DNA of 43,387 nt. Origin: Methylophilales bacterium BACL14 MAG-120910-bin43 (lineage in GTDB: Bacteria; Pseudomonadota; Gammaproteobacteria; Burkholderiales; Methylophilaceae). Below, one piece after another: positions 15,800 through 43,387 of this stretch (positions within the stretch are counted from its first letter, which is position 1; each line of letters opens with the position of its first letter). The notes under the pieces were generated by a model. The model was given only the letters and a program-made list of their open reading frames with translations, ran no database searches and was not told the origin of the DNA. Location: assembly GCA_905181685.1 (NCBI GenBank), contig CAJIYK010000004.1:121337-164723 (forward strand). Reading direction: 5' to 3'. Both the position numbers and the translations under genes were made by a program.

Positions 15800-15803
15800 G
15801 CCC

Positions 15804-16808: not shown

Positions 16809-16820
16809 ATGACTTTAACT

Positions 16821-17670: not shown

Positions 17671-17699
17671 ATTTAATCTAATTTTTGAACCCCAACAAA

Positions 17700-17874: not shown

Positions 17875-17923
17875 GCTACACTTCATGAAAAAGGTTAAAT
17901 AGATTTAAGCCTATTTAAGTTTG

Positions 17924-18064: not shown

Positions 18065-18124
18065 AATAAATCCACCTGTAATTTAAATATAATTATATAT
18101 AATCATTATTTGAGGTAAAAAACA

Positions 18125-19132: not shown

Positions 19133-19207
19133 TAAAAACAATATATTATAAAGTTAATTTAAAGTTAAAATTGAAGTTAAAAAACTAAATATTTACGTGA
19201 ACACTCG

Positions 19208-20277: not shown

Positions 20278-20375
20278 ATATTAAGACTTACTAAGCTTTA
20301 AAAAGTTTCTTTAAACCCAATCGTATAAATGACATTGTATAATATATTGCTAAAGACATTATAAAAGGAGAGGGT

Positions 20376-20741: not shown

Positions 20742-20762
20742 CTACATTAAGGGATCAAAATT

Positions 20763-21474: not shown

Positions 21475-21530
21475 AAAAACATAAAATGTTAAGCTTAGAT
21501 GGCTTAAAAAAATTTAAATAAGAGGAGAAT

Positions 21531-21923: not shown

Positions 21924-21971
21924 TTAATTTATAAAAGATGATGTGAGCTATGGAGTTATTATAGGCACTTT

Positions 21972-22510: not shown

Positions 22511-22813
22511 TAAATACGCATCAAAAGTAGCATTATATAAGACTTATAAAAAATATTCTTTATAAACAATAAGTTAGACTATTGATGAATCTTAAATATT
22601 GCTATATACTTAATTTAAGACTGTTCACATAACATTATCCATTGTTAACTACGGTCAATGTAATTCATGACCAAAAGTCTTCAAAAAACAAATCACGACC
22701 AAAAGTCTTCTTGTTTTAAAACCTGATAATTAAATCACGTTCAATCAAATAAAAGATTTGACGTTATTTACTTTAATTATCACTTTTTATTTAAACAATT
22801 TAAGGAAAAGATA
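22511..22813. promoter_or_regulatory. Leader of panB with direct and inverted repeats
   Basis: A 17-base element ending GACCAAAAGTCTTC occurs twice with one mismatch, at 22666-22682 and 22694-22710 (period 28). GGTCA (22653-22657) can pair with TGACC (22668-22672), and AAGACT (22617-22622) with AGTCTT (22676-22681). Further on, TCAAAT (22745-22750) and ATTTGA (22756-22761) form a perfect six-base stem with loop AAAAG. No open frame is seen. This could be a regulated promoter region or a structured leader; no known riboswitch class is recognised. Confidence 0.4.
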
Positions 22814-23626: not shown

Positions 23627-23722
23627 GAAATATTTAATTTGAGGAAGTTGATATAGAGGGTGATAAGGGATGATAATAAATTTATATAATCTAACTTGTT
23701 ACCCTCTCTTATCGTCATTATT

Positions 23723-24289
23723 TTGAAAAAAGATACAGTAAGAAAGATATATTTAAAAAAGCGTCAAGATCTGTCTTCATCAGAATTTGAAGAAAATTCA
23801 TCACTTCTCATTCAAAACACAATCGAGCTTATAAAAAAATATGAGCTTAAATTTATCCATTGCTTTTTACCAATCCATACAAAGGATGAAATTAATACTT
23901 CACCAATCGTTCAGTATTGTTGGAAAAATAATATAAAGGTTGTTGTCCCTGTGAGTAACTTTGAAGAGGGGACAATGAGAAATGCAGCATTTAGTCCAGA
24001 TACCAAAACCAAACAAGCTAAATATAATATTACCGAACCAATTAATCCTATTTGGATAGAGAACGATAAAATCGATCTAGTAATCACACCACTTTTAGCC
24101 TTTGATCTGAAAGGCTATCGAGTGGGCTATGGAAAAGGTTTTTACGATCGTTTTTTTGCTTCTTTACATAAGGATGTAAAAAAAATTGGCATCAGCCTTT
24201 TTATGCCTTGCGAGCTCATAGAAGATACAAACGAACATGATGTCCCTTTGACGTGCTGCGTTACTCCCAATAAAAACTATTCTTTTTAG
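23723..24289 (+). CDS. ygfA: 5-formyltetrahydrofolate cyclo-ligase
   Basis: The enzyme converts 5-formyl-THF to 5,10-methenyl-THF with ATP, recycling folate. Motifs are RKIYLKKRQDLSSSEFEENS at the N terminus, FLPIHTKDEINTSPIVQYCW, ITPLLAFDLKGYRVGYGKGF followed by YDRF (the conserved GxGKGxYDR signature), and CCVTPNK near the end. There is no ATG; an in-frame TTG at 23723 gives a start at LKKDTVRK that fits family length (about 188 aa), and another TTG at 23696 would extend it by nine residues. It is in the same orientation as panB, 96 bases downstream. Confidence 0.82.
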   Translation: MKKDTVRKIYLKKRQDLSSSEFEENSSLLIQNTIELIKKYELKFIHCFLPIHTKDEINTSPIVQYCWKNNIKVVVPVSNFEEGTMRNAAFSPDTKTKQAKYNITEPINPIWIENDKIDLVITPLLAFDLKGYRVGYGKGFYDRFFASLHKDVKKIGISLFMPCELIEDTNEHDVPLTCCVTPNKNYSF

Positions 24290-24362
24290 GTAGTTGGAGA
24301 TAAGCTAGTTGCTCTATAAACCTCTATGTAAATCCTTATAAAAAGCTATAAGTATATTTAAA

Positions 24363-26061
24363 TCAATATACTTCTTCACGGCTTTTTTCTTTTCCCCTTG
24401 GGTCAGAGGCAACTTCAATTTTATTATTTTCTTGATCCCAAGTAATTATCTGCATATTACCAAACTGCCTATTTGATTTTTTAAATATATGTCCCATACT
24501 TTCCAATTCATCGATCTCGCTCGACATAAATGCTTCTTCCTCATAGAGCACATAATCTGGATGATATTGATGATGAAATCTTGGCAAAGAGACCATAGAT
24601 TTAGCATCTCCTCCATTTATCCATTCCAATGTTGCAAGTAGAATCATACTTATAATCCTTGAGCCTCCTGGGGTTCCTAAAATTACAAAGCCTCTATCTG
24701 ATTCAAGAAAAGTTGGTGTCATACTGGATAACATCCTTTTTCTAGGCTCCACTGCATTAGCGTCATATCCAATTAATCCATAACCATTCTCAGTTCCAGG
24801 CTTGATAGAAAAATCATCCATTTCATTATTCAGCAAAACACCCGTCCCTTTGGGAACAAAGGCAGACCCAAACCAAAAGTTGATAGATTGCGTGACTGCA
24901 ACACGATTACCAAATTTATCGATTACTGCAAAATGCGTTGTATCGTTACCTTGCCCTTGGTATGGTGGGTCAGCGAACTCGAGAGTTTGATTATCTGTTG
25001 CATAATTAATGTTAAGACTTTCTCTTTGTTTTGCTGCATAACTAGGAGTTAAAAGAAATTCAAGGGTATTATCCATAAAATCTGGGTCTCCCATTTTTAA
25101 GGCTCTTTCATAATACGCTCGCCTTAGAGACTCAATAATTAAATGTTTTTGGGTGGTAGGACTAAGTTTATCCAATTCATATCCTGCTAATATATTTAGG
25201 GCATTAGATAGAACCAAACCTCCTGAGGATGGAAGTCCTGGGGCGATAATTGAAATTCCTTTGTAGGTTGATCGAACTGGTTCTCGCTCAAGAACTTTAT
25301 ATCTATTTAAATCTTCTTCGCTCCAAATACCGCCATTATTTTGAACAGATTCAACCATTTTTTTAGCAAAGCTTCCTGTGTAAAAACTTCTGTGGCCATC
25401 CTTCATTAATTTTTTTAATCGTCCTTGCTAGATCAGTTTGTTTTAGGATCCATCCTTTTTTTGGCACTTCGCCTTTATGTAAAAAAATTGCTTCCGTTTC
25501 TTTATATTTTTTCAGCCATTTCTTTTTATATTTTGCTCCTTTTAAATATCTTTCATTTACAGGAAATCCATTGATCGCTGCCTCATAGGCAGGATCTAAA
25601 AGGGTACTTAATTTTTTTGAACCGTATTTATCATTGACGTAGCTTAATACCGCAGGGATACCTGGTATTCCTGCAGACAATGGTCCAAGCGTAGACATAT
25701 TTTTTATAACGTTCGCATTTTCATCTAGATACATATTTTTATGAGATTGAAGCGGAGCAGTTTCTCTGGCATCTAACATTGTATATTTCTTACTTTTAGC
25801 ATCATATATTAACCAGAATGCGCCTCCTCCAAGACCTGATGCAAATGGCTCTACTACAGAAAGCATTGCACTGATTGTTGTAGCAGCATCATAAGCGTTA
25901 CCACCTTCAGCTAAAATTTTTTCTCCTGCTTTAGTTGCCAGAGCATTCGAAGTTACTACCGCACCCTTGGGTTGAGTTAGTTCATTGGGGAAAATACTTC
26001 CAGAATAAAATAATATAAATAATAGATAAAGCCAATGATTAGAAATTATGAATATCTTCAT
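24363..26061 (-). CDS. ggt: Gamma-glutamyltransferase (one frame slip)
   Basis: This periplasmic enzyme hydrolyses or transfers the gamma-glutamyl group of glutathione. It has a signal sequence (MKIFIISNHWLYLLFILFYS), the large-subunit core (AVVTSNALATKAGEKILAEG, NAYDAATTISAMLSVVEPFA, SGLGGGAFWLIYDA, MLDARETAP), and the autoprocessing site GQGNDTTHFAVIDKFG, where the first threonine of TTH is the nucleophile of the small subunit. The small subunit shows MDDFSI and MLSSMTPTFLE plus GTPGGSRIISMI. The two frames join as KKINEGGHRSFYTGSFAKK if one base is removed at about 25398. Full length is about 566 residues, normal for the family. Confidence 0.88.
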
Positions 26062-26160
26062 TTATAAAAAGTCTTGTTTTTGATTTGTAATTCATTATTA
26101 TATTTTTTGAAACATATTTAATTATTTTACTTTAACCCTTAAATCAATATTTACATAAAC

Positions 26161-26982
26161 ATGACAAATAATAAATTATATAAACTTTTTTCTATTTTAT
26201 TCTTTTTAACAATATTACTTGGTTGTGGTAATTCAGATACTAGCCAGGTTATTGATAAAGCCCTAGAGGCTGAACATAGAACGCCTTCTTATGTTGAGCG
26301 TGATAAATATCGCCATCCAAAAGAAACATTACTCTTTTTTGGCCTGAATCCGGAACAGTCTGTTGTTGAAATTACTCCGGGATATGGTTGGTATACAGAG
26401 ATTTTAGCTCCCCTGATGCGTAATAAAGGGCAGTACTCTTATGCCTCCCTAGAACTGCATGAAAAAATAAATCCTTACTTTGTTAAATTAGAACGAGCAT
26501 TTAAAGAAAAGATGGAAAAAAATCCTGATATTTACGACCAACTCCGTTGGGTTCATTTTGATCCAAAACAACCTGAATTTTCTCCGAATAGCCCTGTTGA
26601 TATGGTTCTTACATTTAGAAACGTTCATAATTGGGCGAAAGCAGGATCAGCTGAAGCGATGTTTGCTGGTTTTGCAAAAGCCCTTAAGTCTGGAGGAGTT
26701 CTTGGAGTAGTAGAGCACAGAGCAAAGGCAGGAACGCCCTTAGATAAACAGATTGAAAGTGGTTATATGACAGAAGAATATGTTATTCAGATGGCAACAG
26801 ATGCCGGATTCAAGCTTGATGCTAAATCCGAAATCAATGCAAATCCTAAAGATACTGCTGATCACCCAAAGGGTGTATGGAATTTGCTACCCAGCTTAAG
26901 GGGGGTTGAAGATGATGATAAGGCAGATATTATATCAATTGGTGAGTCGGATCGAATGACTTTACGATTTATTAAGGAATAA
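26161..26982 (+). CDS. Lipoprotein-anchored SAM-dependent methyltransferase-like protein (COG4798 type)
   Basis: The 273-residue intact product has a lipoprotein signal (FFLTILLGCGNSD, cysteine at residue 22), so it is exported. The mature part reads HPKETLLFFGLNPEQSVVEI, TPGYGWYTEILAPLM, VDMVLTFRNVHNWAKAGSAE, ALKSGGVLGVVEHRAKAGT and GYMTEEYVIQMATDAGFKL, the pattern of predicted periplasmic methyltransferases in COG4798. The SAM-loop GxGxG is changed to TPGYGWY, as usual in this group. Its substrate is unknown, and use of SAM in the periplasm is puzzling for the whole family. Confidence 0.78.
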   Translation: MTNNKLYKLFSILFFLTILLGCGNSDTSQVIDKALEAEHRTPSYVERDKYRHPKETLLFFGLNPEQSVVEITPGYGWYTEILAPLMRNKGQYSYASLELHEKINPYFVKLERAFKEKMEKNPDIYDQLRWVHFDPKQPEFSPNSPVDMVLTFRNVHNWAKAGSAEAMFAGFAKALKSGGVLGVVEHRAKAGTPLDKQIESGYMTEEYVIQMATDAGFKLDAKSEINANPKDTADHPKGVWNLLPSLRGVEDDDKADIISIGESDRMTLRFIKE

Positions 26983-27018
26983 TAAACGGTCAATCTAAGG
27001 CCTATTTGATCAAAGAAT

Positions 27019-27100: not shown

Positions 27101-27548
27101 TTATCCTCGATAATTTTTTTCAGAATCAAATTGACCTAAATCGATTTTAGGCTTTGGATTCCAACCTGGCTTAGAATGTTCAGCAACCACATTAGTAAAA
27201 ATACCACCTCTAACAAAGAATTTGGCAGTTAATCTCATAAATCTAGGGTCTGTTGCCTGAACAAGGTCATCTAAAATACTGTTAGTAACTGCTTCATGAA
27301 AGCATCCCTCATCTCTGAATGACCAGATATAGAGTTTTAGACTTTTTAGTTCCACACAAGTCTTATCGGGGATATAATCAAGGTACAAAGTAGGCGAAGT
27401 CAGGTTGGCCTGTTTTAGGACACAAACAGGTAAACTCTGGAATTTGCATATGGATATGAATATCTCTTTTAGCGTTGGGATTTTCGAATGTCTCTAGTGT
27501 TTTGGTGGGTTGGGCTGTTGGCTTTCCACCGAGTGAATTTTGATTCAT
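27101..27548 (-). CDS. queF: 7-cyano-7-deazaguanine reductase QueF (one frame slip)
   Basis: QueF reduces preQ0 to preQ1 with NADPH in queuosine synthesis. The N-terminal frame (start 27548) reads [36 protein letters not shown] and [10 protein letters not shown], where the CP cysteine is the nucleophile. The continuation [34 protein letters not shown] is in another frame, with the QueF motif ELKSLKLY. Removing one base at about 27392 joins them as [13 protein letters not shown], as in relatives. The total of about 149 residues fits the short (unimodular) QueF type. It ends 7 bases from tRNA-Ala. Confidence 0.88.
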
Positions 27549-27633
27549 AACTTAAGCTTAAATTTATTTGAAAGATGACATTATACTGCCTTGAACAAAT
27601 TCTTTTTCAACAAAATCCAAAGATTGATAACAA

Positions 27634-30600
27634 TTGAAACTTAAAGAGATTAAATTAGCTGGCTTTAAAACATTTGTTGACCCAACAACAATAAAAGTTG
27701 ACGCACAATTAGCAGGCATTGTGGGACCAAATGGTTGTGGTAAATCAAACGTAACCGAATCTATTAAATGGGTTTTAGGATCTTCCTCAGCTAAAGAGTT
27801 GCGAGGAGGAACGATGGAAGATGTCATCTTTTACGGAAGTGATACTCGCCAGCCCGTTTCTAGAGCAAGCGCTGAACTTTTCTTTGATAATTCAGAAGGG
27901 ATGGCACCACAAGCATGGGCTAGTTACGCTGAAATATCTGTCAAGAGGGTCATTGAAAAAGAAAAGGGATCAAGTTATTACATTAACAACACTCAAGTGA
28001 GAAGAAAAGATGTAGCTGACTTATTTCTTGGTACTGGCTTAGGCGCTAAAGGTTATGCAATCATTGGGCAAAATACAGTCTCACAAATTATTGAAGCAAA
28101 GCCAGAAGAGCTAAAAAACTTTCTTGAGGAAGCTGCTGGTGTCAGTCAATATAAAGAGAGAAGAAAAGAAACAGAATATCGACTGCGTGATACAAAAGAG
28201 AACCTATCACGAGTTGAGGACCTGTTAAGGGAAATCAATCAACAAATCACCAAGCTTGAATCACAAGCAGAAACTGCTAGCAAATATAATAAGCACCAAG
28301 AAAATTTAAAATTCCAAGAAGCGCAGGTTTGGGCATTAAAGAAGAGGGATGCGAATGAGTCTTGGGACCAAATAAAAACACTTATTACTAACCAACAGAC
28401 TGAATTAGATCAATTTACAACAGCATTAAGAGATATCGAAGTAAACGTTGAGAATGCCAGGCAAGAGCACGCTGATACATCTAACGAAATTAATTCTGCG
28501 CAGGCTAAATTTTATGAGGTAAATGCCCTTGTATCTGATGCAGAAAATGCTCTAAATAATATTAAAAATAATTTAGAGAGATTGAAGGTTACATTGGTTG
28601 AGAGTGAGGAAAAATTGAAATCTCATACCACTTCAATCGATGAAATTGAAAAAGCGATAGAAGAAAATCAAAATTTAATACAAATCGAAAATGAAAAACT
28701 TTCTCAGCACCAACAAAATGCAGTAGCTGATAAAGCCAGTCTCGTGAAGGTAGAAGCTGAATATAGGGCAGCTGTTGAGAAGTTAGAAGTTCAGCAAAGC
28801 GAAAATCAAAAAATATACGAGTTAATTAATTTAGAATCAACTCGAATTGATTATATTAATAAAGGCATTGAGGATTTAGAGGTAAGAAAAAAACAACTTC
28901 ATGACGAATCCTTGGCAATTAAAGAGAAGGGAGGAAGTCATGACAGCACCTCTCCAGACCACATAGGAGATATAGATAATCAAATAACGCTCGCGGATAA
29001 TGAGTTATCAGAGAAAAAAGAATTGCTTAGATAAGTTAGAAAAAGAAACAGACAGCCTCAACTTGAGAAAAGATGAGCATCTTAAAAATTTTCAGCAGAC
29101 TGAAATACAAATCTCGACCCTGTCGAGCTTTGTGGAGAGCGAAATGAATGATGAGCATACCAGTGAATTTCTTAATGAAGCAGGTATTGATAAAGAAAGG
29201 AATATATTTAAAAGAGTTGATATCGAAAAAGATTGGCAAAAAGCTGTTAGCTTTCTTCTTTCAGAGTATGCCAGCGCCTATGAAAGCAAAAGAATATCCC
29301 CTAAATCACTTAAAGAGATACCAACAAGCATAGCTGTTGTATATGAGGGAAGTTCAAACAAGACAATTACGCATAACGCAAAACTCACGCCACTGCTTTC
29401 AAAAGTATCTTCTAAAATACCTAATATAAATAATGTATTAACAGAATGGCTTTGTCATGCCTATATTACAAATGAACAAGATCTAGAGGGTAATCTTAAA
29501 GATCTTAACTTTGGTGAAATATTGGTTGATCAGTCTGGAAATATTCATGGTAAAAACTTTCAAGTATTTCGATCTGAAAATAAAACAAAATCTAACAAAC
29601 TTACTAATCTTAAGCTGCTTGAAGACCTAAAGAAAGATTTACCCGGATACAGGAGTGAGCTAGATAAAACTATTAACAAAACAGATGAACATGTAGAAAA
29701 TTTAGCGACAACAAAAAAAGAAGTTGAGCTTTTATCTGAGAAAAAATTTAATCTTATTGAAGAGAAAAATTCAATTAATTTAGAGGTAAATAAACAGCAA
29801 CAAATTGAAATTCATAGGCAAGAAAGAATTGTCAATATAGGCATCGAGCTTGAAGAGGCTGATAAAAAAATAAGTAGTTTTATGGAGGAGCTTAGTCAAA
29901 AACAAAAGAGTCTCGACGAACATAGTAAAGACAAATTAAATTTACAAAACAAATTAGAGGAATTATTGAATGACAAAAAAACCTCTGAGGTAAAATTTGA
30001 ATCAGAAAGAGAAAAGGTATTTGCAAGAGATAAAACAGAGCAAGAGCTTTTATTCAATCTAAAAATTCATCAGAACAAACATGAAGATTTCGTTGAAAAA
30101 TTAACTCACAATACCAACGAAAAGCTTCGCTTAGAAAAATTAATAAATGACTCCCATACCCAATTAAATGAAAAAAACTCTGAAAATCAAGAATCAATTC
30201 TTAAAGAAAGCCTTCAAGAAAAAGAACAGGCAGAAAAAAATCTTATTAAAGCAAGAGAGGATCTTTTGACGAAAGAAACTAATCTGAAAAATTTAGAAAG
30301 CAAAAGACTGGAAAAGCAACACTCACTGAATCCACTTACTGAAAAAGTCCAAGAATCTAAAATTTTAGAAAGAGAATCACAGATCCTATTCCAGCAATGC
30401 TGCCAAGAAATTGAAAAAACCTCTTTCGATGAAAGTGCTTTGCTTGATGCAATCGATGATGACACAAATGTCGAATCGATAATAGAGAAGTGTGATGCAC
30501 TCCGCCTTAAAATGGAACGTCTTGGTCCAGTTAACCAAGCTGCTATCGATGAATTAAATTCCATCCAAGAAAGAAAAAATTATCTACAAAAACAATCTGA

Positions 30601-31138
30601 TGATTTAACTGAAGCGATGACGACACTTGAGAATGCAATTAAAAAAATCGATAGTGAAACAAAGGAAAAATTAGATACAACATACAAAGAAGTTAACAAA
30701 AATTTCAGTGAGTTTTTTAAAAGATTGTTTATGGGAGGAAGGGCAGAGCTTCAATTGATGGGAGATGAAATTTTAGATACAGGTCTCCAAGTATCAGCGC
30801 AACCCCCTGGTAAAAAAAATACAACGATTAATCTTTTGTCAGGTGGGGAAAAAGCATTAACAGCAATATCACTTATATTTGCATTATTTAAATTAAACCC
30901 CTCTCCGTTTTGCGTTATGGATGAAGTAGATGCACCATTGGACGATACCAATACAGGTAATTTTTGTTCTTTAGTAAAGGAAATGGCAGAAAAGACACAG
31001 TTTTTAATCGTTACACACAACCGAATTACCATGGAGATTGCAGAACAATTAGTCGGCGTTACTCAGCAAGAACTTGGAGTTTCAAGGATTGTCGAAGTAG
31101 ATATGAGGGATATTGACGATATGGAGCTAGCTTACTAA
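27634..31138 (+). CDS. smc: Chromosome segregation ATPase SMC (one frame slip)
   Basis: SMC organises and segregates the chromosome. The start is TTG (MKLKEIKLAGFKTFVDPTTI). Walker A is GPNGCGKSN at residues 31-39, followed by a long coiled coil, a hinge-like globular region at about residues 490-680, a second coiled coil, then the ABC signature LLSGGEKALTAISLIFA, Walker B PFCVMDEVDAPLDDTN and the D-loop. The length of about 1,168 residues is normal. The frame breaks once at about 29030-29034: ELSEKKELLR stops, and the next frame continues as DKLEKETDSLN. Removing one A restores a continuous coiled coil. It heads the smc-zipA-ligA-TPR unit. Confidence 0.93.
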
Positions 31139-31140
31139 AT

Positions 31141-32223
31141 ATGAATGATGTTCAACTTGCACTATTAATTACGGGCGTAGCCATTATTTTTGTGCTAATC
31201 ATCTACAATTGGAGTGAATTAAAAAGATTAACAAAGAAACAAGCCAGCCTCACAAAACCTAACAACTCTATTAGCGAGGACAACGATCCACTTTTTCATA
31301 ACTTTAATGATCTAGAAGTGACTCCTGAAGTTGTTGAGCCTTTTGAACCCATAGAAAAAGAGGTTAATGAGAATTTAACTGGTTCAGAAAAGATAATTAA
31401 TTCAAATTTGCCTGATGGCATTGACAGAGACATTGAAACCGTAATTTCAATTACATGTAAAAAGATTCAAGAGTCGAGCAGTGGATTACTTTTAGATAAA
31501 ATTAAATCGATGCCAGGTGTCAGAGTTTATATTAGAAAAGATAATGATTTGTGGGCAACAGAATCAGCAATTTATGACTCTATTAATTACAACCAGGTTC
31601 TCTTAGTTTTGCTGCTCGCAAGTAGGAAATATACTTTAGATACCAAAGCCATCCAGGATTTTAAGCAGCTTGCGAATGATATTTCATCAAATGTTGATGG
31701 ACCAATATTTTGGTTATCTAATCAGGATATTGAAAAAGAATCTTTTCATTTAAGTAAATTTAAAAAAGATGTTGATCACTCATTGATTCTTCAGGTTTAT
31801 CCGAAGTCTGACCCAACATTTCACGCAGGGCCTTTGATAGACTTTTTTAAACAACCTATCTTTAAAGTCAATAATAAATCGTTTCACGAATTAATACACC
31901 AAGATTCAGGCCAAAAGATCTGCGTGCTGACTTCACTAACTGGGAAGCCACTAAATATAAGTCATGAAACATTCCTTCAAGGAATTATTTTCAAAATGGA
32001 CATCCCAAATACTATGAAAATTACAACAGCATTCAACGAACTTATTCTTATAATTAAACAATTCAACACTAAGCTTAATGGAGTGCTTGTTGATGTTAGC
32101 AGAAAGCCTTTAAACGATGATCAAATAAGCCAAATTTATGTGCATTTAAAAAAACTAGAGAAAATAATGCAAGAAAAGAAAATTCCATCGGGCTCGAAAA
32201 TTGCTCAAAAAATGTTCAATTAA
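31141..32223 (+). CDS. zipA: Cell division protein ZipA
   Basis: ZipA anchors FtsZ to the inner membrane. The 360-residue intact product has an N-terminal membrane helix (VQLALLITGVAIIFVLIIYN), a charged and variable linker (about residues 30-95), and a C-terminal globular domain (about 215-350) with HAGPLIDFFKQPIFKVNNKS, FHELI, FKMDIPNTMKITTAFNELIL and NDDQISQIYVHLKKLEKIM, the FtsZ-binding ZipA fold. It starts two bases after the smc stop, the classic smc-zipA-ligA arrangement of Gammaproteobacteria, which supports the host class. It looks longer and more divergent than the E. coli protein. Confidence 0.85.
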   Translation: MNDVQLALLITGVAIIFVLIIYNWSELKRLTKKQASLTKPNNSISEDNDPLFHNFNDLEVTPEVVEPFEPIEKEVNENLTGSEKIINSNLPDGIDRDIETVISITCKKIQESSSGLLLDKIKSMPGVRVYIRKDNDLWATESAIYDSINYNQVLLVLLLASRKYTLDTKAIQDFKQLANDISSNVDGPIFWLSNQDIEKESFHLSKFKKDVDHSLILQVYPKSDPTFHAGPLIDFFKQPIFKVNNKSFHELIHQDSGQKICVLTSLTGKPLNISHETFLQGIIFKMDIPNTMKITTAFNELILIIKQFNTKLNGVLVDVSRKPLNDDQISQIYVHLKKLEKIMQEKKIPSGSKIAQKMFN

Positions 32224-34245
<2,022 letters not shown>

Positions 34246-34247
34246 TA

Positions 34248-35108
34248 ATGATTAAACAATTAACATTAATTTTATCTTTTATATTATTGTATTCAAACAA
34301 TATTTTTGCTTATAATGTGAATAATGAATGTGAGAAACAATTAAATAAAGGTAAGTTTGAGGAGGCTTTAAAAGCAGCGAATTCAGTTAAAGACAAATAT
34401 GACTCTAACTTTTGTAAGGGTAAAGCTAATTTTCGTCTTAGAAATAATGATCAGGCAATTAAAGACTTTGAAATAGCCGAAAAGGAAGCTTCTATCCAAG
34501 CTGATCAAATGCAAGCAATTCTTTTCAAGGGCATTACACAGAGGGATTCTGGAGACTTTAAAGGGTCTAATAAGACATTCACTTATGGATTTCAGACAGC
34601 AGAATTGGGCAACAGTAAATACCTTCAATATGAACACCGTTTTTTGTATCAATTAGGTATTAACATGCTTAGGACTAAAGAATTTTTAGATGCTCAAGAT
34701 TACTATACAAGAGCTTTGGTATTGGCCTCAAATGATAATGAGCGAGCTGTTTGTTATGAAGGCTTAGCTCAAACATACTTCTATAGAAATAAAGCCTCAA
34801 AAGCAGTTGAATATGGCTTAAGAGCAACATTAATGTTTCAAAAGACTGGAATGCTGGGTGAATACGCTGATAGCAGCATTGAACTTTCAAGATACTATTA
34901 CCTAGATAAGAACCAAACAAAAGCAATCGAAACACTGAAGAAGCTTGAAAAGTTTTGTATTGATAATGGTGGAGAATATTATCTAGCTAAAACACTGATT
35001 GCTCAAGTTGAGCTATATACAAAAATTGGAGATGAGAAGGCCGCTGCAGAAAGCAAAAAAAATGCGGAGATAGTGATGCAAAGATTGGGTATCGAAGACT
35101 TTGACTAA
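34248..35108 (+). CDS. Exported tetratricopeptide-repeat protein
   Basis: The 286-residue product has a signal peptide (ILSFILLYSNNIFA) and then a chain of helical TPR-like repeats: CEKQLNKGKFEEALKAANSV, ANFRLRNNDQAIKDFEIAEK, AQDYYTRALVLASNDNERAV, and ETLKKLEKFCIDNGGEYYLA. It likely mediates protein contacts in the periplasm. It starts two bases after ligA, so it is the last gene of the smc operon. Its last 63 codons recur as a diverged copy at 37424-37633 (see that entry), with identical final residues IEDFD. Confidence 0.78.
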   Translation: MIKQLTLILSFILLYSNNIFAYNVNNECEKQLNKGKFEEALKAANSVKDKYDSNFCKGKANFRLRNNDQAIKDFEIAEKEASIQADQMQAILFKGITQRDSGDFKGSNKTFTYGFQTAELGNSKYLQYEHRFLYQLGINMLRTKEFLDAQDYYTRALVLASNDNERAVCYEGLAQTYFYRNKASKAVEYGLRATLMFQKTGMLGEYADSSIELSRYYYLDKNQTKAIETLKKLEKFCIDNGGEYYLAKTLIAQVELYTKIGDEKAAAESKKNAEIVMQRLGIEDFD

Positions 35109-35151
35109 ATTATTTTTTTGACATACGTTGATATTGTTGCTTTGTAGAGCG

Positions 35152-36480
35152 CTATCTCTCAAACTCTAATGCGCCATCATCAACTTTACTCAATTTGAAT
35201 ATAATATATTCCACAAAATAATTCTGATAAAACTTATACGTCCTGTTTGGAAACTTATCCATAGCCCTTAATACGTAATTAGCCTGTATTGATGGCGTAG
35301 TCTTTTCTCCCAAATACTTAGCGGTACAAGTACTTAATTCTTTTTTCTTCATATACTTAATTGTTTTACAAATGCGTTGACTGACTATTTCACATCTCGC
35401 AGTCCAACTAAAATTTATGTATCCTGCGTGCGCAAAAAGGTTTGGCAACCCACTAAACATCATTCCTCTGTACCAACTCGTATCGTGGATATTTATTTTC
35501 TTATCATTAACAAAAATATCAATGCCACCCAATAATTGTGCATTACCGCCTGTAGCCATTACAGTTAAATCACTATGGATAACTTTCCCATCCTGCAGCT
35601 TGACTCCTGTTGCCTCCCAATTACTTACTCCTTGGCGCTCAATTTTTACCTTGCTTGACTCAACAGCCCTAAAATAATCCTGATCTAAACTAGAAGCAGG
35701 GCGCTGGTCCCAAAAATCATATGATGGAGTGGTTTTATCGTTATAATATGGATCTGCTGCGATAATTTTTTTTCTAAGTGATTTTTTAAAAAACCTACTA
35801 GATATATAGTCTTTTAAGACTTGAAATGTTTTGTAACCACGTGATGATTTTTCTTGGCTATCAATATTAATAATCCATGCAGGGCTACGCTGAACTAATG
35901 TTACTTTCTTAGCCTCTTTTATAATTGAAGGTGCCATGGTAATAGCGGTACAGCCACTTCCGATAATAGTTACACTTTTACCTTTAAAGTCTGTATCCCC
36001 CCAGTTTTGCGTGTGTACAATTTTGCCTTTGTACTTACTTTCCCCTTTAAACTTAGGTAGGTGAGGGTTATTACGATCACGTGACCCAGTACAGCAAATA
36101 ACGTACTGACTCGTATAATTTTTTTTATCGGTTTTTGTTGTCCATAAATTATCCTTCCAAGATAGTGCCGATACCTGCGTATTAAATACTATATTTTTTT
36201 TGATTTTAAATTTGTTTGCTGTTTGATTTATGTACCCTCTGATATCCGCGCCATTTCCTATTATTGAGCCTTTCCATGGATTGAAACTAAATCCATAGGT
36301 ATACATATCGTTATCTGCGCGAACACCAGGAAATTTCATCTGATCCCAAGTTCCACCCGCAGAGCTCCTCGAATCGAGTATCTTGTAGCTGACGCCTGGA
36401 AAATTTTTCTGCAAGTAATATGCTGTAGTAATTCCAGCAATACCCGCACCAATAATAATTACATCTATGTTATCTTGCAT
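35152..36480 (-). CDS. Flavin-containing monooxygenase (Baeyer-Villiger type)
   Basis: The 442-residue intact product has an N-terminal FAD loop IIIGAGIAGITTAYYLQ, the GGTWDQMKFPGVRADNDMYT segment seen in Baeyer-Villiger monooxygenases, the fingerprint YKGKIVHTQNWGD, and a second dinucleotide loop VTIIGSGCTAITMAPS for NADPH. It would insert oxygen into ketones or oxidise sulfur/nitrogen compounds. It ends 43 bases from the TPR gene and begins 7 bases after the broken EamA copy, suggesting an EamA-FMO unit. It lies between the two halves of a duplicated block and may have arrived with it. Confidence 0.82.
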   Translation of the reverse strand: MQDNIDVIIIGAGIAGITTAYYLQKNFPGVSYKILDSRSSAGGTWDQMKFPGVRADNDMYTYGFSFNPWKGSIIGNGADIRGYINQTANKFKIKKNIVFNTQVSALSWKDNLWTTKTDKKNYTSQYVICCTGSRDRNNPHLPKFKGESKYKGKIVHTQNWGDTDFKGKSVTIIGSGCTAITMAPSIIKEAKKVTLVQRSPAWIINIDSQEKSSRGYKTFQVLKDYISSRFFKKSLRKKIIAADPYYNDKTTPSYDFWDQRPASSLDQDYFRAVESSKVKIERQGVSNWEATGVKLQDGKVIHSDLTVMATGGNAQLLGGIDIFVNDKKINIHDTSWYRGMMFSGLPNLFAHAGYINFSWTARCEIVSQRICKTIKYMKKKELSTCTAKYLGEKTTPSIQANYVLRAMDKFPNRTYKFYQNYFVEYIIFKLSKVDDGALEFER

Positions 36481-36487
36481 AAAAAAC

Positions 36488-37368
36488 TCAGCTTTTACTT
36501 TTTAATTTTCTAGAAACAAATATACCAAAAACAATTAATACCAAGGCTACCATATTTTGCCACAAAACTGGCTCGCCTAATACAAAAGCACCTAAAGTAA
36601 AGGCATAAACTGGTATCACATAGTTCATATTTGATAGAAAGGCTGCGCCAGCATTATTTATCAAATTAAAGTAAATTAAGGCACCTAACCCTGTAGAAAG
36701 CAAACCAAGTGCTAACATATTTAATAATGTTCTAATTGGCACGCCATCAAGTGATAAGTTAATAATGTCTGGCCATAACAAAAATGCCAAAAGACTTGCC
36801 AGCGTTGAAGAGCAGGTGGCCGCCACAAGTGGGTCATATTTAGGAAGCTTCTCAACAATAACGCTATTAATGGAATAAAAAAAGGTTGCGCCTAGTATTA
36901 GCAAAATTCCATACAATTCATTATTACCATCGCTTATTGAAGGTCCTAAAATAAATAAAACACCAGATATACCTAGGATAAAACCTATAATTTTAAATCT
37001 ATTTAGTTCATTATTAGGAAGAAAAATATGCGCAAGAACAATTGTCATTAGCGGCACAAATGCCATTAGTAGCCCGGCCATGCCTGATGTAATAAATAAC
37101 TGGCCTTGGGTTATCAGTAGTTGCTAATGATCCACCAAAACACTGTAAAGAAGAAATGCAGCCTGTTAATTAATTTAAAGTATTTGGAAATTTTTAAGAA
37201 TAATCATCATAATTAATAAGGTCGATATTAACCCCAAGATAATGAAGTAATATACTGGGTCGGGGAGAAGTACCCACCATTTAAACATTCGAATATCATT
37301 GCAAATGATGATCCCCAAATTACTATAAGTAATCCAAGGTATTGATAATTTCTTAATGAACTCTGCAT
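36488..37368 (-). pseudogene. EamA/DMT-family transporter, copy 1 (broken N-terminal half)
   Basis: The C-terminal part (from MAGLLMAFVPLMTIVLAHIF to VFGIFVSRKLK) is intact and matches the transporter at 37641-38516 at roughly four residues in five. The N-terminal part is recognisable in pieces: MQSSLRNYQYLGLLIVIWGS, SFAMIFECLNGGYFSPTQ, then other frames and stops with FIILGLISTLLIMMII and LLITQGQLFITSGM. At least three frame changes and a stop lie between about 37090 and 37250. Relatives are ten-helix metabolite exporters. Either several sequencing errors cluster here, or the gene is decaying while its homologue next door stays intact. The ATG at 37368 aligns with the start of copy 2. Confidence 0.72.
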
Positions 37369-37423
37369 ATACTAATTTGCTTAAATAATTCTTAATGTCA
37401 AGTAGAGCGATAAATTCAAATAA

Positions 37424-37633
37424 AGTTTAAATGAAAATGAAGTAAAAGCCATTGATACATTGAAAAAGCTTGAGAAATTTTGTATTGACAATGGTGGTGA
37501 ATATTATTTAGCTAAAACATTAATCGCACAAGTTGAGCTTTACACTAAGATTGGTGACGATGAAGCTGCAGCAGTAAGTAAGAAAAATGCAGAAATGGAG
37601 GTGCAATGGTTAGGGATTGAGGACTTTGATTAA
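37424..37633 (+). pseudogene. Detached 3' fragment of the TPR gene
   Basis: The frame reads NENEVKAIDTLKKLEKFCID, NGGEYYLAKTLIAQVELYTK, then ends LGIEDFD at a TAA at 37631-37633. Over 63 codons it differs from 34920-35108 by 40 bases by my count (about 79% nucleotide identity), yet only 8 of 62 residues change. There is no start codon or 5' part. It stands tail-to-tail with EamA copy 2, seven bases apart. Confidence 0.85.
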
Positions 37634-37640
37634 TACAAAA

Positions 37641-38516
37641 CTAGGCTTTTCTTCTAGATACAAATACACCAAAGACAATTAAAATTAAGGCTAAGATATT
37701 TTGCCATAAGACAGGCTCGCCCAACACAATGGCGCCTAAAGTAAAGGCATAAACGGGAATGACGTAATTCATATTTGAAAGAAAAGTTGCTCCAGCGTTT
37801 TTAATCAAATTAAAGAAAATTAATGCGCCTAAACCGGTTGGTAACAGGCCAAGAGCTAGCATATTTAAGGATGTGCTGAGTGGAATACCCTCTAAATCCA
37901 AATAAATCATATCTGGCCAAATTAAAAATGCTAAAAGACATGCAAGTACTGAAGAGCATGTTGCTGCAACTACGGGGTCATATTTTGGAAATTTCTCAAC
38001 TACAACACCATGGCTAGCATATCTTCTGCAAGCTCCTAAGATTAAAAGAATACCAAATAACGTGTTATTGCCATCATCTATAGATGGGAAAAGTATAAAC
38101 AACACACCAGATATCCCTAGAACAAAACCAAGGATCTTATAACGATTTAATGCATTGTTTGGCAGAAAAATATGTGCTAATACCATGGTTACCAAAGGTA
38201 CGAAAGCCATCAGAAGACCTGTCATGCCAGATGTTATATGCATTTGCCCGCGAGAAATAAGTAAGAAGGGGACAATGTTACCGATCACAGCATATATGAA
38301 GAAATGTACCCATGGGGTTAACGTTTTAGGAAAGCTTTTCCTATAAAAAAAACAGGCAATTAATAATACAACTGATCCTATAGCTAATCGATATCCCACT
38401 GTTTGTTCAGGTGTAAAATGTCCACCAACTAAACACTGATGCATCATTGCAAAGGATGATCCCCATATAATGATGATTAGGACAAGATACTGGTAGTTTC
38501 TTAGGGTGCTCTGCAT
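37641..38516 (-). CDS. EamA/DMT-family transporter, copy 2 (intact)
   Basis: The 291-residue product has ten hydrophobic helices in two EamA repeats: VLIIIIWGSSFAMMHQCLVG, VGYRLAIGSVVLLIACFFY, GMTGLLMAFVPLVTMVLAH, then PVVAATCSSVLACLLAFLIW and NYVIPVYAFTLGAIVLGEPV. It would export a metabolite or amino acid by proton exchange. Compared with copy 1, the short stretch GACRRYASHGVVVEK is odd where copy 1 has GATFFYSINSVIVEK; two compensating indels could explain this. It is the intact member of the pair. Confidence 0.84.
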   Translation of the reverse strand: MQSTLRNYQYLVLIIIIWGSSFAMMHQCLVGGHFTPEQTVGYRLAIGSVVLLIACFFYRKSFPKTLTPWVHFFIYAVIGNIVPFLLISRGQMHITSGMTGLLMAFVPLVTMVLAHIFLPNNALNRYKILGFVLGISGVLFILFPSIDDGNNTLFGILLILGACRRYASHGVVVEKFPKYDPVVAATCSSVLACLLAFLIWPDMIYLDLEGIPLSTSLNMLALGLLPTGLGALIFFNLIKNAGATFLSNMNYVIPVYAFTLGAIVLGEPVLWQNILALILIVFGVFVSRRKA

Positions 38517-38655
38517 ATTTGCCTTTATTCTACTTAACCACTTACCAAAAGTTGTTTTTTGTATTTAAACACAATAATTGTATTATTAGTTTAATAATTT
38601 ATTTCATTTAACATAATATACATTATACGAAGTAATATATTAAAGCACTTGGGTG

Positions 38656-39469
38656 TTATCGATTAAAGGGGCTGTAATGTGGGTCATAAACCCTGATATC
38701 ACGGTTATTACTTCTTAATGAACTAAATGTATCTGAAGTTGTGCCAAGCTGATAAGTGAGGTTAAGTGAAAACCGCGTATTAAATCCATTATCGTAGGAA
38801 ATATTAGGGGCTAATGCCAATTGATCATTTATTTTATAATCCAACCCAGCCTTAACTCCAGACCCAACCGTTCCCCCTGATGTATCGCTATCCTGGTAAT
38901 AGTAACCTAACACTGTGTTAAGAGAATCGTTAATGACATAACTCATATCTAAACCATAAGTATGTAATGCGATTCCCTCATAGGTATTATTCAATCTTTT
39001 TTCTGTTGTTAAAGGACCTAGTTGAGTATCAGGATCCATACAATATGTCATCAACAATAATAACGGCACTGTAGGCTAGTTGATGATAAACAACATTCTT
39101 TTTATCAATGACATTAACGCCATTATCCGCATTCCCTGTTTTCATATAACGCGTGTCATACCCGGCATTAAAATCAAAAACATAGTTGTTTGAACTCCAG
39201 CTTTGACCAACCCGAAGTGATGATGAGGCACCGATACCTGAAACCTTGGTGTCCTTTAGGCTAGATTCGTTACCGATATCCGAAAAACTGGCTTTGGCAA
39301 TCCCATCAAAATAAAACCCCTCACTGCCAAGAGGGATAAACGCCCCTATTCCCGCTTGATTCGGTGTCCCAGCTGCTTGGCTCTGCGCATCTATACGCCA
39401 GTCAATCGCCTTATCTTCTGCAATGCTTATTGTTGGAATCATTAATAATAGTAAAAGTAGTTTCTTCAT
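38656..39469 (-). CDS. Outer-membrane beta-barrel protein (frame slip in the middle)
   Basis: The N-terminal frame (39469-39029) has a signal peptide (LLLMIPTISIA) and amphipathic strands (IGAFIPLGSEGFYFDGIAKA, SFSDIGN, YVFDFNAGYDTRYMKTG). The continuing frame (to 38656) has TYEGIALHTYGLDMSYVIND, LNTVLGYYYQDSD, KAGLDYKINDQLALAPNISY and FSLNLTYQLG. The alternating aromatic strands and Tyr/Asn-rich turns point to a barrel of about ten or more strands. It may resemble the inverse-autotransporter barrel class, but I would not name it further. The slip is at about 39030-39060. A palindrome lies upstream at 39499-39522. Confidence 0.6.
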
Positions 39470-39498
39470 ATCACCATCCTGTGTTTATATTTCTTTAA

Positions 39499-39522
39499 GT
39501 ATCTTATATTCACGTAAGATAC
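39499..39522. promoter_or_regulatory. Perfect 8-bp inverted repeat in a divergent promoter region
   Basis: GTATCTTA (39499-39506) and TAAGATAC (39515-39522) are exact reverse complements around an eight-base spacer. The element lies 30 bases upstream of the beta-barrel start on the minus strand and 89 bases upstream of the deacetylase-like gene on the plus strand. It is not followed by a T tract, so an operator is more likely than a terminator. Confidence 0.4.
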
Positions 39523-39610
39523 CTTTAACAAGTGCGTTTACAGGGGATGAAACGTAAAGGGAATTTGTTTTTGATTTTACATACAACATTTTAAGTATAA
39601 TTAATTGTAT

Positions 39611-40651
39611 ATGAAAAAAATAAATTTTTTTACCTTTTGTCTTGCAATGATTATGGGAATATTAAGTAATATTTCTTCTGCGAATGATAAAAAAGTTGGC
39701 ATTTTTTATGATGAAAGATTTCTGTTGCACGACACAGGTCCAAATCATCCAGAAAATCCTGAACGTTTAATTCCTGTCATTCGTGATCTTAAAAATAATG
39801 ATCAAATAACATTAAATACCATTTGGCCTAATTTTGAAGCAGCAACTACTGGAGGAATTAAGTTTAGCTCATTCAAAGGAATATATTGAGCTAGTAGATA
39901 GGCAAGTTTCTCAATTAAACAACAATATGAGCCTTATTTAAGTACTGGCGATACCCCTATTTCCAAAGATTCCAATCTTGTCGCAAAATTAGCTGTAGGG
40001 GCAGGTCTAGAAGCCGTTGATCAAATAATGGCTGGTAATTTATCCTCTGCATTCGCGCTAGTCAGGCCTCCTGGGCATCATGCATCATCCTCAATGGGGA
40101 TGGGTTTTTGTGTTTATAACAGCATTGCTGTTGTCGCAAGATACTTACAAAAGAAATATGGATTAGAGAGAATTCTTATTGTCGATTTTGATGTTCATCA
40201 TGGGAATGGAACACAAGATATATTTTATGAAGATAATCGTTTTTTACTTTAGTGTTCATCAACATCCTTTTTACCCTAAAGCTGGTCGCCCAAGTGAAAC
40301 AGGTAATGGTGAAGGTAAAGGATTTACATTAAATGTAGAGCTTCCTAAGGTTCAGGGAATAATGAATTATTAGATGCTTTAATAACAACTTAAGACCAGC
40401 TATGGATAATTTAACCAGAATTTATTCTTGTCTCTGCTGGCTTTGATGCTCACTAGGGAGATTTATTAGGGCAGTTAAATTACACTGTCAAGTGGCTATA
40501 AAGAGGTTGCTTTCATGATTAAAGATATTGCTCAAAAATATGCTCAGGACGAACTTTATATGCTTGAGGGCGGATATGTTGAAGAAATATTTCTAATTCA
40601 GTTAATGAAATATTAGATGTTCTAATAAAAAAAACTATTAGTATTAATTAA
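39611..40651 (+). pseudogene. Exported histone-deacetylase-family (acetylpolyamine-amidohydrolase-like) gene, heavily broken
   Basis: The start has a signal peptide (MKKINFFTFCLAMIMGILSN, ISSA) followed by VGIFYDERFLLHDTGPNHPE. Later pieces in changing frames give SKDSNLVAKLAVGAGLEAVD, ALVRPPGHHASSSMGMGFCV, YNSIAVVARYLQKKYGLERI, LIVDFDVHHGNGTQDIFYED, SVHQHPFYPKAGRPSETGNG, ILVSAGFDAH and MIKDIAQKYAQDELYMLEGG. The zinc ligands (DFDVHH, GFDAH) and the RPPGHH active site are visible. Frame changes occur near 39880, 39935, 40248, 40360 and after 40400, and in-frame stops appear (for example after GFDAH). This many defects suggests a true pseudogene, though sequencing error cannot be excluded. Exported HDAC-like enzymes are uncommon. 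Confidence 0.78.
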
Positions 40652-40663
40652 GTAAAAGATTAT

Positions 40664-40739
40664 GGGGGATTAGCTCAGTTGGTAGAGCAGTTGACTCTTA
40701 ATCAATTTGTCGCGAGTTCGAACCTCGCATCCCCTACCA
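40664..40739 (+). tRNA. tRNA-Lys (anticodon CUU)
   Basis: GGGGGAT pairs with ATCCCCT (one G.U at the end), the D arm is TAGCTCAGTTGGTAGAGCA, the anticodon stem GTTGA/TCAAT encloses CTCTTAA (anticodon CTT), the T arm is CGCGAGTTCGAACCTCGC-like, and ACCA ends the gene. Confidence 0.94.
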
Positions 40740-40740
40740 A

Positions 40741-41245
40741 TTAGTCTATATCTGCTGCGAGATCTGAATATTCAGACTCTAAGATTCCAATAATTTCATG
40801 CTCTCCACAAAGCAGTCCGGGTTCAAAAACAATCTTAAAATAATAATTTTCTTCAATAAACTTATAATCACCTTCATATTTACAAGCACCGCCTAATCCT
40901 GTGACAGGTAAACTTAAACTCCACCCGACCTTGGTTGCTAATTCATAAGTCCCTGGTTTAACTGTGGTTTGAATTTTTGTACTATAGGAGAGCTCCCCTA
41001 CTTCATCATCATCAACATATAACTCAACATCTTGACCAATGGTCAAAGGATCAGCTGGCCTAACAAAATATAAATTTATTTGATCTACTTTAACTTCTTT
41101 AAATTCATTGGCCTCATTAGATATTCATCTTATTTTCTTCTTTGTCATCACCAAGTGGATCAGTGATATTTTTGATGGATTCACAGCCACCCAAAAATAA
41201 ACAAAGAGGCAATAAAAAAGCAATCGTAACTTTAGAGATTTTCAT
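40741..41245 (-). CDS. DUF2846-like lipoprotein (one frame slip)
   Basis: The upstream frame (start 41245) gives a lipoprotein signal MKISKVTIAFLLPLCLFLGG ending at Cys21 and SIKNITDPLGDDKEENK. It stops near 41117. The adjacent frame continues NEANEFKEVKVDQINLYFVR, PADPLTIGQDVELYVDDDEV, KIQTTVKPGTYELATKV and CKYEGDYKFIEENYYFKIVF to the TAA at 40741-40743. The order of strands (YFVRP, a short beta-hairpin naming a value, then TxVxPGTY) is that of DUF2846/PEGA-like periplasmic lipoproteins. Total is about 167 residues. Confidence 0.62.
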
Positions 41246-41304
41246 GTTTAATCCAAGACAAAATTAATATTTAATCCTACGCTTAATGATTCAGATCAAC
41301 AATC

Positions 41305-41886
41305 TTATATCTTGAATATAAGAAGAAAAAAGATAATTAATAAAACCATACCCCAAACAAGTTTACCCATGTGCTTTCTGATTAAATCATCTGCCTGCTT
41401 TCCAAACATAATGACAAACAATGCAACTAAGTAAAACCTAGCGCCTCTCCCTATAATTGAAGCCAAGAATAAACGGCAGGATTGGCATTAAGAGAGCGCC
41501 TCCTGCAATCGTAAATACTTTATAAGGTATAGGTGAAAATCCAGCAATAAATATAGCCCAGAAACCCCACTCCTCAAACCACATCACTGCCCTTTCGTAG
41601 GCTGGCATATATCCCCAATCATATAAATAAGGCTCAATAAATCCAAACGCATAAACACCTATGAGGTAACCGATAATACCCCCAAGGACTGAACCAACCG
41701 TTGTAATAAGGGCAAACTCTCCATGCTTTTGTTGGGTTTCGATAAGCACATGGGTAACAACATCACATCGGGTGGAATTGGAAAAAAAGAAGACTCTGAG
41801 ACACTTAAAAGAAATAAATAATATTTAGCTTTTGCATGGCTTGCTAGCTTTAAGACGTACTCATATAACTCTAGAAATTTATGCAT
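41305..41886 (-). CDS. YqaA/DedA-family membrane protein (two frame slips)
   Basis: The corrected product of about 193 residues begins MHKFLELYEYVLKLASHAKA, then SVSESSFFPIPPDVMLLPM, VGSVLGGIIGYLIGVYAFGF, EEWGFWAIFIAGFSPIPYKV, FTIAGGALLMPILPFIL and ends SIIGRGARFYLVALFVIMFG, QADDLIRKHMGKLVWGMVLL. These are the signatures of the DedA-like (SNARE-associated/VTT) YqaA group, thought to act in lipid flipping or membrane homeostasis. Slips lie near 41740 and 41470. It begins 5 bases after the MFS gene stop and is likely co-transcribed with it. Confidence 0.8.
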
Positions 41887-41891
41887 ATAAC

Positions 41892-43134
41892 CTATTTAGC
41901 TTTTGATGAAAAATATGTAGCTATTAGAGATATTATAGCGGCAAGTGCTAGGTAATAACCCACGTAATGCACACCAAAATTACTCGAGAGCCAGAGTGCG
42001 ATAAATGGAGCAAATGAAGCTCCCACAATGCCAGCGAAATTAAATGATAAAGATGAGCCTGTGTACCTTACATTCGTCGGATAAAGTTCTGATAGGATAG
42101 TCCCTAAAGGACCATAGGTAAATCCCATTAAAGCCATCCCTATAGAAAGAGTTAAAAGAAGGCTGGTATCTAGTAATGGGCCAAGTGCCATTCCGAATAA
42201 AATAATGCCCAGTGATGCCATAATTAAAATTAACTTTCTTCCATAGCGGTCAGCAAGAACTGCTGAAATAGGAATAAATACAGCAAAGAGTAGAACAGAT
42301 TCAATTTGATTGCCTAAAAAATCTTCACGATTAATATTTAGGTCTGTAATCGCCCAACTCGCAATATAAACAGTCATTAAGTAAAACAGTACGAACGTTG
42401 CTAATGCGATAAATGTTCCTAGAATCATGGGTGTCCTATAATTCTTAAACACCTCAACAAATGGAACAGCTATAGGTTTTTTTATTCTTTTGGTTCTCTA
42501 TAAATTCTGGCGTTTCTAATATTGTTAGCCTCACATATAGACCAATTAAAATTAGAACAGAGCTCAAGAGAAAAGGTATTCTCCAGCCATAATCAAAGAA
42601 TTCAGCTTCCGTCATTGTGCTCGATAAGTATAGAAAAATACCGCCTGAGAGGATCAGTCCGATGGGAGCCCCTAACTGAGGGAACATGCCATACCAAGCT
42701 TTTTTCTCAGGAGGGGCATTCTCAACAGCTAGTAAAACGGCACCACCCCACTCTCCTCCCAGACCAAAGCCTTGACCAAAACGACAAATAACTAAAAGAA
42801 TCGGGGCAAAAATACCAATGGATTGATATGTTGGGAGTAAGCCAATCGCAACGGTTGAAACACCCATGGTGAGTAATGCAGCTACTAGGGTTGTTTTTCT
42901 ACCAATACGATCACCAAAGTGACCAAAGAATGCAGAACCTAATGGCCTCGCAAAGAAGGCAACAGCAAAGGTGGCAAGTGATTGGAGCATTTCTGTTGAC
43001 TGAGTTGATGCAGCAAAAAAAAGTGAGGGAAATACTAAAACAGCTGCGTTTGCATAAATATAAAAATCAAAGAATTCAATAGTGGTGCCTGCCAAACTTG
43101 CGAACTAAACTTTAGCAGGAGAATTTTTTTTCAT
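41892..43134 (-). CDS. MFS transporter, metabolite:H+ symporter (MHS) type (early stop and one frame slip)
   Basis: The product would be a twelve-helix importer of organic acids or compatible solutes. Family marks are FASLAGTTIEFFDFYIYANA, VAFFARPLGSAFFGHFGDRI and GRKTT (the MFS loop 2-3), RFGQGFGLGGEWGGAVLLAV, YGWRIPFLLSS, and in the second half ADRYGRKLILIMASLG plus ELYPTNVRYTGSSLSFN. The probable ATG at 43134 is followed by a TAG at codon 10 (in V-stop-FASLAG), where relatives have a sense codon, and the frame slips near 42455-42480. The start overlaps the end of the MEKHLA gene by 23 bases. The specific substrate cannot be read. Confidence 0.8.
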
Positions 43135-43387
43135 AATTTATTGATTTATATATGATGACGGCTTGTCCGATTTTGATTGATTCTTTATCAACGATATTCC
43201 AAATGGTGGCATCTTCAATCTGAAATAACTCTCCATCAGAGGCTACACGAATACCCTTATAGTTCTCTATAAAGCCATGAGAGTTTACTTGATTTAATAA
43301 CTCATTTCTTTCTTTTTGTTCAGATTCTGGAGCCGTCATTGTCGTTGGTTGACCTATCACTTGATCTAAGGTCACTTTAAAAAGTGA
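43112..43387 (-). CDS. MEKHLA-domain protein (5' end beyond the window)
   Basis: The visible part starts at the right edge with SLFKVTLDQVIGQPTTMTAP, then ERNELLNQVNSHGFIENYKG and IRVASDGELFQIEDATIWNI, VDKESIKIGQAVIIYK. This is the C-terminal part of a MEKHLA domain, a PAS-like module; its (V/I)W(N)(I/L) core and IEDAT are diagnostic to me. The bacterial proteins are single-domain and their ligand is unknown. It is upstream of, and overlaps, the MFS transporter, so a role connected with its substrate is plausible (inference). Confidence 0.72.
   Translation of the reverse strand, partial: SLFKVTLDQVIGQPTTMTAPESEQKERNELLNQVNSHGFIENYKGIRVASDGELFQIEDATIWNIVDKESIKIGQAVIIYKSINYEKKFSC

Follow-up and report, generated by a model that had tools for sequence, protein, structure and literature searches.

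The window considered here is a stretch of 43,387 bases, G000:C4:121337-164723, which forms the terminal 43 kb of the 164,723-base contig C4 in the assembly G000 (795,014 bases, completeness estimated at 51%); its host is presumably an OM43-like marine methylotroph, the OM43 name itself being our attribution. Beside the chromosomal dif site the window holds a complete TPR-repeat gene, an FMO-like flavoprotein gene, a broken EamA transporter gene (copy 1), and then a 3' fragment of a second TPR gene followed by an open EamA gene (together, copy 2). This mosaic order, described in the initial annotation, is confirmed by the open reading frames, their strands and the Pfam matches. The locus was compared with the genomes of the genus (31 including G000, 0.7-1.4 Mb in size), in particular with five relatives that have the same locus, namely G016, G018, G021, G022 and G023. 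Ancestry was scanned along the window in 250-base bins, silent and replacement distances were calculated by the NG86 method, and tree topologies were compared using the approximately unbiased (AU) test.

The left side of the mosaic is resident. The DNA ligase gene ligA (32227-34245, plus strand) has 98% amino-acid identity to that of G018, and the complete TPR gene (34248-35108, plus strand; 286 amino acids, Pfam TPR, no match in NCBIfam) is 98.1% identical to its G018 counterpart at the nucleotide level, with a silent distance of 0.094. Both genes group with G018 in the trees (support 100/100 for ligA and 100/99 for TPR), and identity to G018 stays within 97-100% across 29.7-35.1 kb. Over 27331-35108 the identity to G023 has a mean of 76% and a maximum of 86.6% in 67 overlapping windows of 1129 bases; the ligA genes of the two lineages share 75% DNA identity. 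Contig C4 as a whole resembles G018: of its 165 bins of 1 kb, 157 have at least 500 bases aligned with a 218.8-kb stretch of G018, with a median identity of 94.4%. Six of these bins fall below 85%, and the lowest two, C4:158001 (68%) and C4:159001 (78%), both cover the mosaic. Given the comparison with five relatives that have this locus, and given that these bins are the lowest of the aligned ones, we do not regard the arrangement as a matter of chance. The TPR gene at 34248-35108 is to be regarded as native, given its 98.1% identity to G018.

The relatives present two haplotypes. The order in G018 and G022 is ligA-TPR-FMO-EamA-dif-acetolactate decarboxylase, followed by a histone-deacetylase-like gene (HDAC), and G016 has the same order up to its contig end inside HDAC. 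The order in G021 and G023 is ligA-TPR-EamA, with no FMO here. Close relatives of EamA occur in 6 of the 31 genomes (G000 included), every one at this locus; TPR lies 0-36 bases from dif in 18 other genomes of the genus, and the remaining 7 of the 31 have no ligA match. It looks as if EamA, and probably later FMO, had been gained within one clade. In GTDB genome contigs, relatives of EamA were found at seven loci. As a separate observation, other members of the genus have different gene sets to the right of TPR: the loci L071 and L081 have four larger open reading frames (the first of 451-452 amino acids), L073 and L074 a single one of 121 amino acids, and L079 and L088 a run of three long ones (501, 546 and 378-379 amino acids).

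Copy 2 belongs to the second haplotype. From 37427 to 38555, 1090 of 1129 bases (96.5%) are identical to G023, and the 250-base bins over 37.5-38.5 kb give 95-99%. The TPR 3' fragment (37427-37633, plus strand) is in frame from about 37427 and shows 94.1% nucleotide identity to G023; the initial annotation was right that a 3' end is present, but the fragment has 68 codons and a stop rather than 63 codons. The EamA gene of copy 2 (37641-38516, minus strand; 291 amino acids, open, Pfam EamA) shows 96.8%, and a last stretch similar to G023 follows at 38517-38555. The seven bases between the two genes, noted earlier, are confirmed, and the spacing is identical in G023 and G021. The fragment groups with G023 (100/99), and so does EamA copy 2 (95/97); its grouping with G018 and G022, a combination chosen after the first tree had been seen, is rejected by the AU test (p 0.0009). 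The silent distance of EamA copy 2 is 0.09 to G023 and 1.2-1.9 to the other four relatives. Because copy 2 is 96.5% G023-like inside a G018-like background, we consider it imported. A second TPR or EamA locus was not found elsewhere in G000, which is incomplete. NCBIfam gave only matches below the curated cut-offs for EamA. A phage origin of EamA was considered and rejected: 113 stretches of viral_contigs matched a pattern, none of them encoding a relative. The 25-mer across the junction has no exact match in viral_contigs.

The two TPR 3' ends were earlier counted by eye to differ at 40 positions, mostly silent ones. A BLAST alignment bears this out (150 of 190 bases paired, 40 differences); in the final 63 sense codons, substitutions affect 42 of 189 bases (32 silent, 10 replacement) and leave 54 of 63 residues the same. 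The conclusion of the initial annotation that the copies are alleles of different lineages and not a local duplication holds, with the fragment falling with G023, the complete gene with G018, and the differences mostly silent. A tandem duplication of TPR-EamA with later decay would account for the fact that a TPR 3' end and an EamA gene each occur twice, with order and orientation unchanged; however, the TPR copies fall with different species, and between the copies the silent sites are saturated or nearly so, with replacement sites conserved. We rejected it on the TPR trees and the silent-site counts and consider it most improbable; the copies are not each other's closest relatives, although for EamA this is less decisive. 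The joining of both copies as sisters, set beforehand as the check on this point, did not occur for TPR, but the EamA pair, while not the best tree, is disfavoured only marginally when taken alone (p 0.057).

EamA copy 1 (36488-37368, minus strand) has a different history. Its codons 1-40 (37249-37368) and its open 3' part, codon 85 onward (up to 37120), lie in different frames, and the sequence between codons 40 and 85, the sole damaged place, is scrambled and contains stops. Codons 85-289 show 70-72% nucleotide identity to copy 2 and to all five sampled orthologues alike, and the bins over 36.5-37.25 kb give 65-79% to every relative. Silent sites are saturated or nearly so against all of them, the replacement distance is only 0.14-0.16, and the silent distance of EamA between G018 and G022 is just 0.41, close to that of ligA between G000 and G022 (0.36); we therefore conclude that selection was acting on copy 1 while it diverged in another lineage, and that it is not a merely decayed gene of the G018 type. 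The position of copy 1 in the tree, which has a very long outgroup branch, is not firm: it stands outside the other six (76/90). A search for a closer relative covered 187 genomes of the family; apart from G000 itself, the best hit, in G016, has 79% amino-acid identity, and outside the genus the values did not exceed about 31%. Neither EamA gene looks inherited from an ancestor common to G000 and G018. The question of which half is native, left open by the initial annotation, is answered for TPR (native) and for copy 2 (imported), and EamA copy 1, too, is unlike the G018/G022-type allele.

The FMO gene (35152-36480, minus strand; 442 amino acids, open, Pfam FMO-like/Pyr_redox) is 90.2% identical to that of G018, with a silent distance of 0.475, and the identity declines along the gene from 92-94% to 85-87%. 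The silent distances to G018 are thus 0.05 for ligA, 0.09 for TPR and 0.48 for FMO. Between G018 and G022 the FMO genes are also far apart (0.70), so an FMO that evolves fast or is often exchanged is no peculiarity of the window. Among the best 25 of 76 NCBIfam matches of FMO, all are under the curated cut-offs. The import of an allelic block had been proposed, and correctly in kind; however, the imported half is copy 2, from a lineage with no FMO at this locus. That the block had carried FMO is not supported: TPR-FMO is the arrangement of G018, G022 and G016, the G021/G023-type source has no FMO here, and the import of FMO with copy 2 was rejected. The FMO-like match of G023 sits on a different contig (74% nucleotide identity).

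We believe it probable that G023-like DNA was spliced beside resident genes near dif, with an illegitimate join on the left. The resident locus would have had the order ligA-TPR-FMO-EamA-dif-acetolactate decarboxylase-HDAC, as in G018. The DNA taken up would come from a G023-like cell that belongs to a different species of the genus, and would have carried the TPR end, EamA and perhaps the donor's own dif flank. On the left, the incoming DNA may have been joined without visible homology, in codon 219 of the donor TPR and some 50 bases away from EamA copy 1 on its upstream side; the upstream stretch of that gene with the junction (at about 37415-37427) occupies 37369-37426. On the right, the join would lie at an unseen place, perhaps through homology at dif or in HDAC, so that the recombination would be one-sidedly illegitimate. 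The donor TPR 3' end would remain as a scar and the donor EamA would become the open copy, possibly the working one; EamA copy 1, of an unsampled lineage, would be damaged.

To the right of dif, an outer-membrane beta-barrel-like gene (38656-39469, minus strand; two overlapping frames, weak Pfam matches under the cut-off) occupies the place that acetolactate decarboxylase has in G018, G022 and G016. No protein from the 30 other genomes of the genus matches its N-terminal half, neither half has a match in NCBIfam, and the DNA at 38640-39469 gives only matches of 30-43 bases, at the gene start, in G028, G027, G004 and G013. The bins at 38.75-39.5 kb match none of G018, G022 and G016, and the contigs of G021 and G023 have already ended there. 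Next comes a remnant of acetolactate decarboxylase (39488-39571, minus strand; codons 3-30, 89% amino-acid identity) and then HDAC (39605-40639, plus strand), broken by several indels relative to the relatives, in doubtful contig-end sequence. Beyond 39.5 kb the window is again G018/G022-like, with 72-98% per bin. HDAC was not found in G023; the HDAC contig of G021 starts 0.7 kb upstream of that gene, and this upstream part has no match to the reference proteins used. Both remnants would follow from one import that began with the TPR 3' end, crossed dif and took in the membrane-protein gene.

Several observations weigh against a G023-like import. The similarity to G023 ends at 38555, short of dif, and the two sampled donor-type contigs both stop near that site, 132 bases past EamA in G023 and at dif in G021, so that in neither can the right half of an imported segment be seen. 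EamA copy 1 and its upstream DNA come from a lineage outside the sampled relatives, which limits any judgement of homology at the left junction, and its grouping with G018 and G022 is compatible with the AU test (p 0.12). The ratio dN/dS of EamA copy 2 is 0.20 against G023 and 0.04-0.07 against the other four relatives, and the TPR fragment has 5.5 silent and 6.5 replacement changes relative to G023; the numbers are small, and the imported block may be under weaker constraint, or a local error or mismatch patch may inflate dN/dS. Both EamA copies contain dense mismatch patches, 39488-43387 differs by 25 indel sites from G018 and by 24 from G022, and the contig terminates 4.8 kb beyond dif in this indel-rich sequence. 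The last points speak for a chimeric assembly, in which sequences from at least two co-occurring strains were fused close to the contig end or noisy reads were poorly corrected there, as do the low estimated completeness of the genome, the HDAC, DedA and MFS genes that are broken in G000 and whole in G018 and G022, and the position of four of the six bins below 85% within the last 7 kb of the contig. However, the same-strand words that the surroundings of the left junction (37301-37440) share with the G023 contig, where an assembler might have jumped, do not exceed 11 bases, though the true parent of copy 1 is absent from the comparison; the incomplete G000 shows no other locus for either gene; and 29733-36481 has just two short indels relative to G018, both intergenic (three more lie at 36482-36508). 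A chimera remains a serious rival, if a rather unlikely one. As a side observation, the dense patch in EamA copy 2 at 38010-38035 changes Ala-Ala-Ser, kept in five full-length orthologues, to Cys-Arg-Arg; it is possibly a local sequence error.

The events might also have taken the reverse order: a G023-type TPR-EamA pair was present earlier, and a TPR-FMO-EamA block entered through homology on its left, so that the earlier TPR 3' end and its EamA were left as orphans on the downstream side. The Vibrio effector-immunity model (PMC5361080) has this layout, in which new genes are followed by a displaced 3' fragment and the partner gene that was there before. On the other hand, this order requires an earlier gain of the G023-type pair, and 27.5 kb to the left of 35.1 kb (8000-27000, 29733-35108), as well as most of the contig, is G018-like, so that TPR looks resident. 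We find the reverse order improbable.

The dif (XerCD) site at 38606-38633 is the 28-mer ACTTCGTATAATGTATATTATGTTAAAT on the minus strand, intergenic and in a single copy. Set against the dif sites printed in PMC2731167, it has a single mismatch each to those of Thiobacillus denitrificans and Nitrosomonas europaea and two mismatches to that of Methylobacillus flagellatus. The site occurs once in 23 of the 31 genomes and is absent from 8 (seven estimated to be at most 81% complete, and G023 at 91%); at up to 3 mismatches, no second copy was detected in any of the 31, and G000 has one. The GC skew in G018 is plus immediately before the site and minus immediately after it, with 20 further 12-kb samples being noisy. 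As a single, intergenic match to proteobacterial dif near a switch of GC skew, the sequence is the chromosomal dif. In an Xer-integrated element (an integrative mobile element exploiting Xer, or a dif module) the insert is bounded by two dif-like sites; with a single dif only, such an element was rejected.

Gene gaps were measured in 24 genomes of the genus (G033, of another genus, was excluded), which are related and do not make independent counts. The gaps are tight to the left: -5 to 11 bases for ligA-TPR and -2 to 6 for zipA-ligA in 24 of 24, and -1 to 20 for smc-zipA in the 22 measured. The distance from TPR to dif does not exceed 36 bases in 18 of 23; in the other 5, which all belong to one clade, it is 966-3500. 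From dif to HDAC it is 1-71 bases in 11 and 189-5103 in 9 (the value of 189, in G009, comes from a weak partial match close to a contig end) and was unmeasurable in 4 of the 24. It is tempting to propose that short allelic segments land preferentially in the dif flanks of OM43-like genomes, with the TPR-dif and dif-HDAC intervals gaining genes although no second dif is present, perhaps since breaks at dif during dimer resolution initiate one-sided recombination with incoming DNA. However, the HDAC-MopB gap, which does not touch dif, is equally variable (of the 14 gaps measured, 4 have a length of 4 bases and 10 of 296-4789), which speaks against a special role of dif, and we hold the proposal to be doubtful.

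Elsewhere in the window, 8011-10464 shows 93% to a G023 contig and 92% to G018, with G023 mostly at about 76-77% in other places; this is possibly another exchanged block. About 5 kb at 2700-8090 has no alignment above 2 kb, and almost none at all, to the G018 stretch (C4 bins 124001-128001), for which we offer the reading of a strain-specific insertion. The smc gene (27634-31138) appears as two overlapping open reading frames in different frames around 29000-29034.

The locus shares gene turnover right beside dif with mobile elements and dif modules that use Xer, and differs from them in having a single dif. Among the titles listed on homologous recombination in Methylophilaceae/OM43 and on OM43/dif/XerC none names the locus, which is no proof that it is unreported. 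The flexible islands of Methylophilaceae/OM43 (PMC10872708) belong to the same family and include replacement islands whose borders show elevated silent divergence; here only a few kb by ligA and dif are concerned, not recognisable as one of the three main islands. That source records small insertions throughout the genomes, and its main text does not use the words dif, terminus or ligA. The orphan immunity arrays of the Vibrio cholerae type VI secretion system, for which homology-facilitated illegitimate recombination has been proposed (PMC5361080), likewise have a 3' gene fragment beside an extra partner allele of another lineage; here no effector or immunity function is suspected, and the partner is a tail-to-tail transporter gene, with one copy damaged. 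The nearest process is homology-facilitated illegitimate recombination, described in PMC3240628 for three competent species and, at low frequency, for E. coli. As there, foreign DNA is present, and one of its ends may be joined where no homology is visible: the DNA at 37427-38555 is foreign to the resident locus, and for the second end dif and HDAC are the candidate anchors, with the donor-type contigs stopping at or before dif. The difference is that the present event would be a natural one. Should it be real, it is a readable record of genes passing from one species of streamlined marine methylotrophs to another, with the donor lineage, the recipient and the left break all identifiable in the sequence, and it points to the dif flanks as a place for counting such exchanges. 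With the caveat of the assembly, it is a clear instance of a known recombination process and leaves the understanding of that process unchanged.

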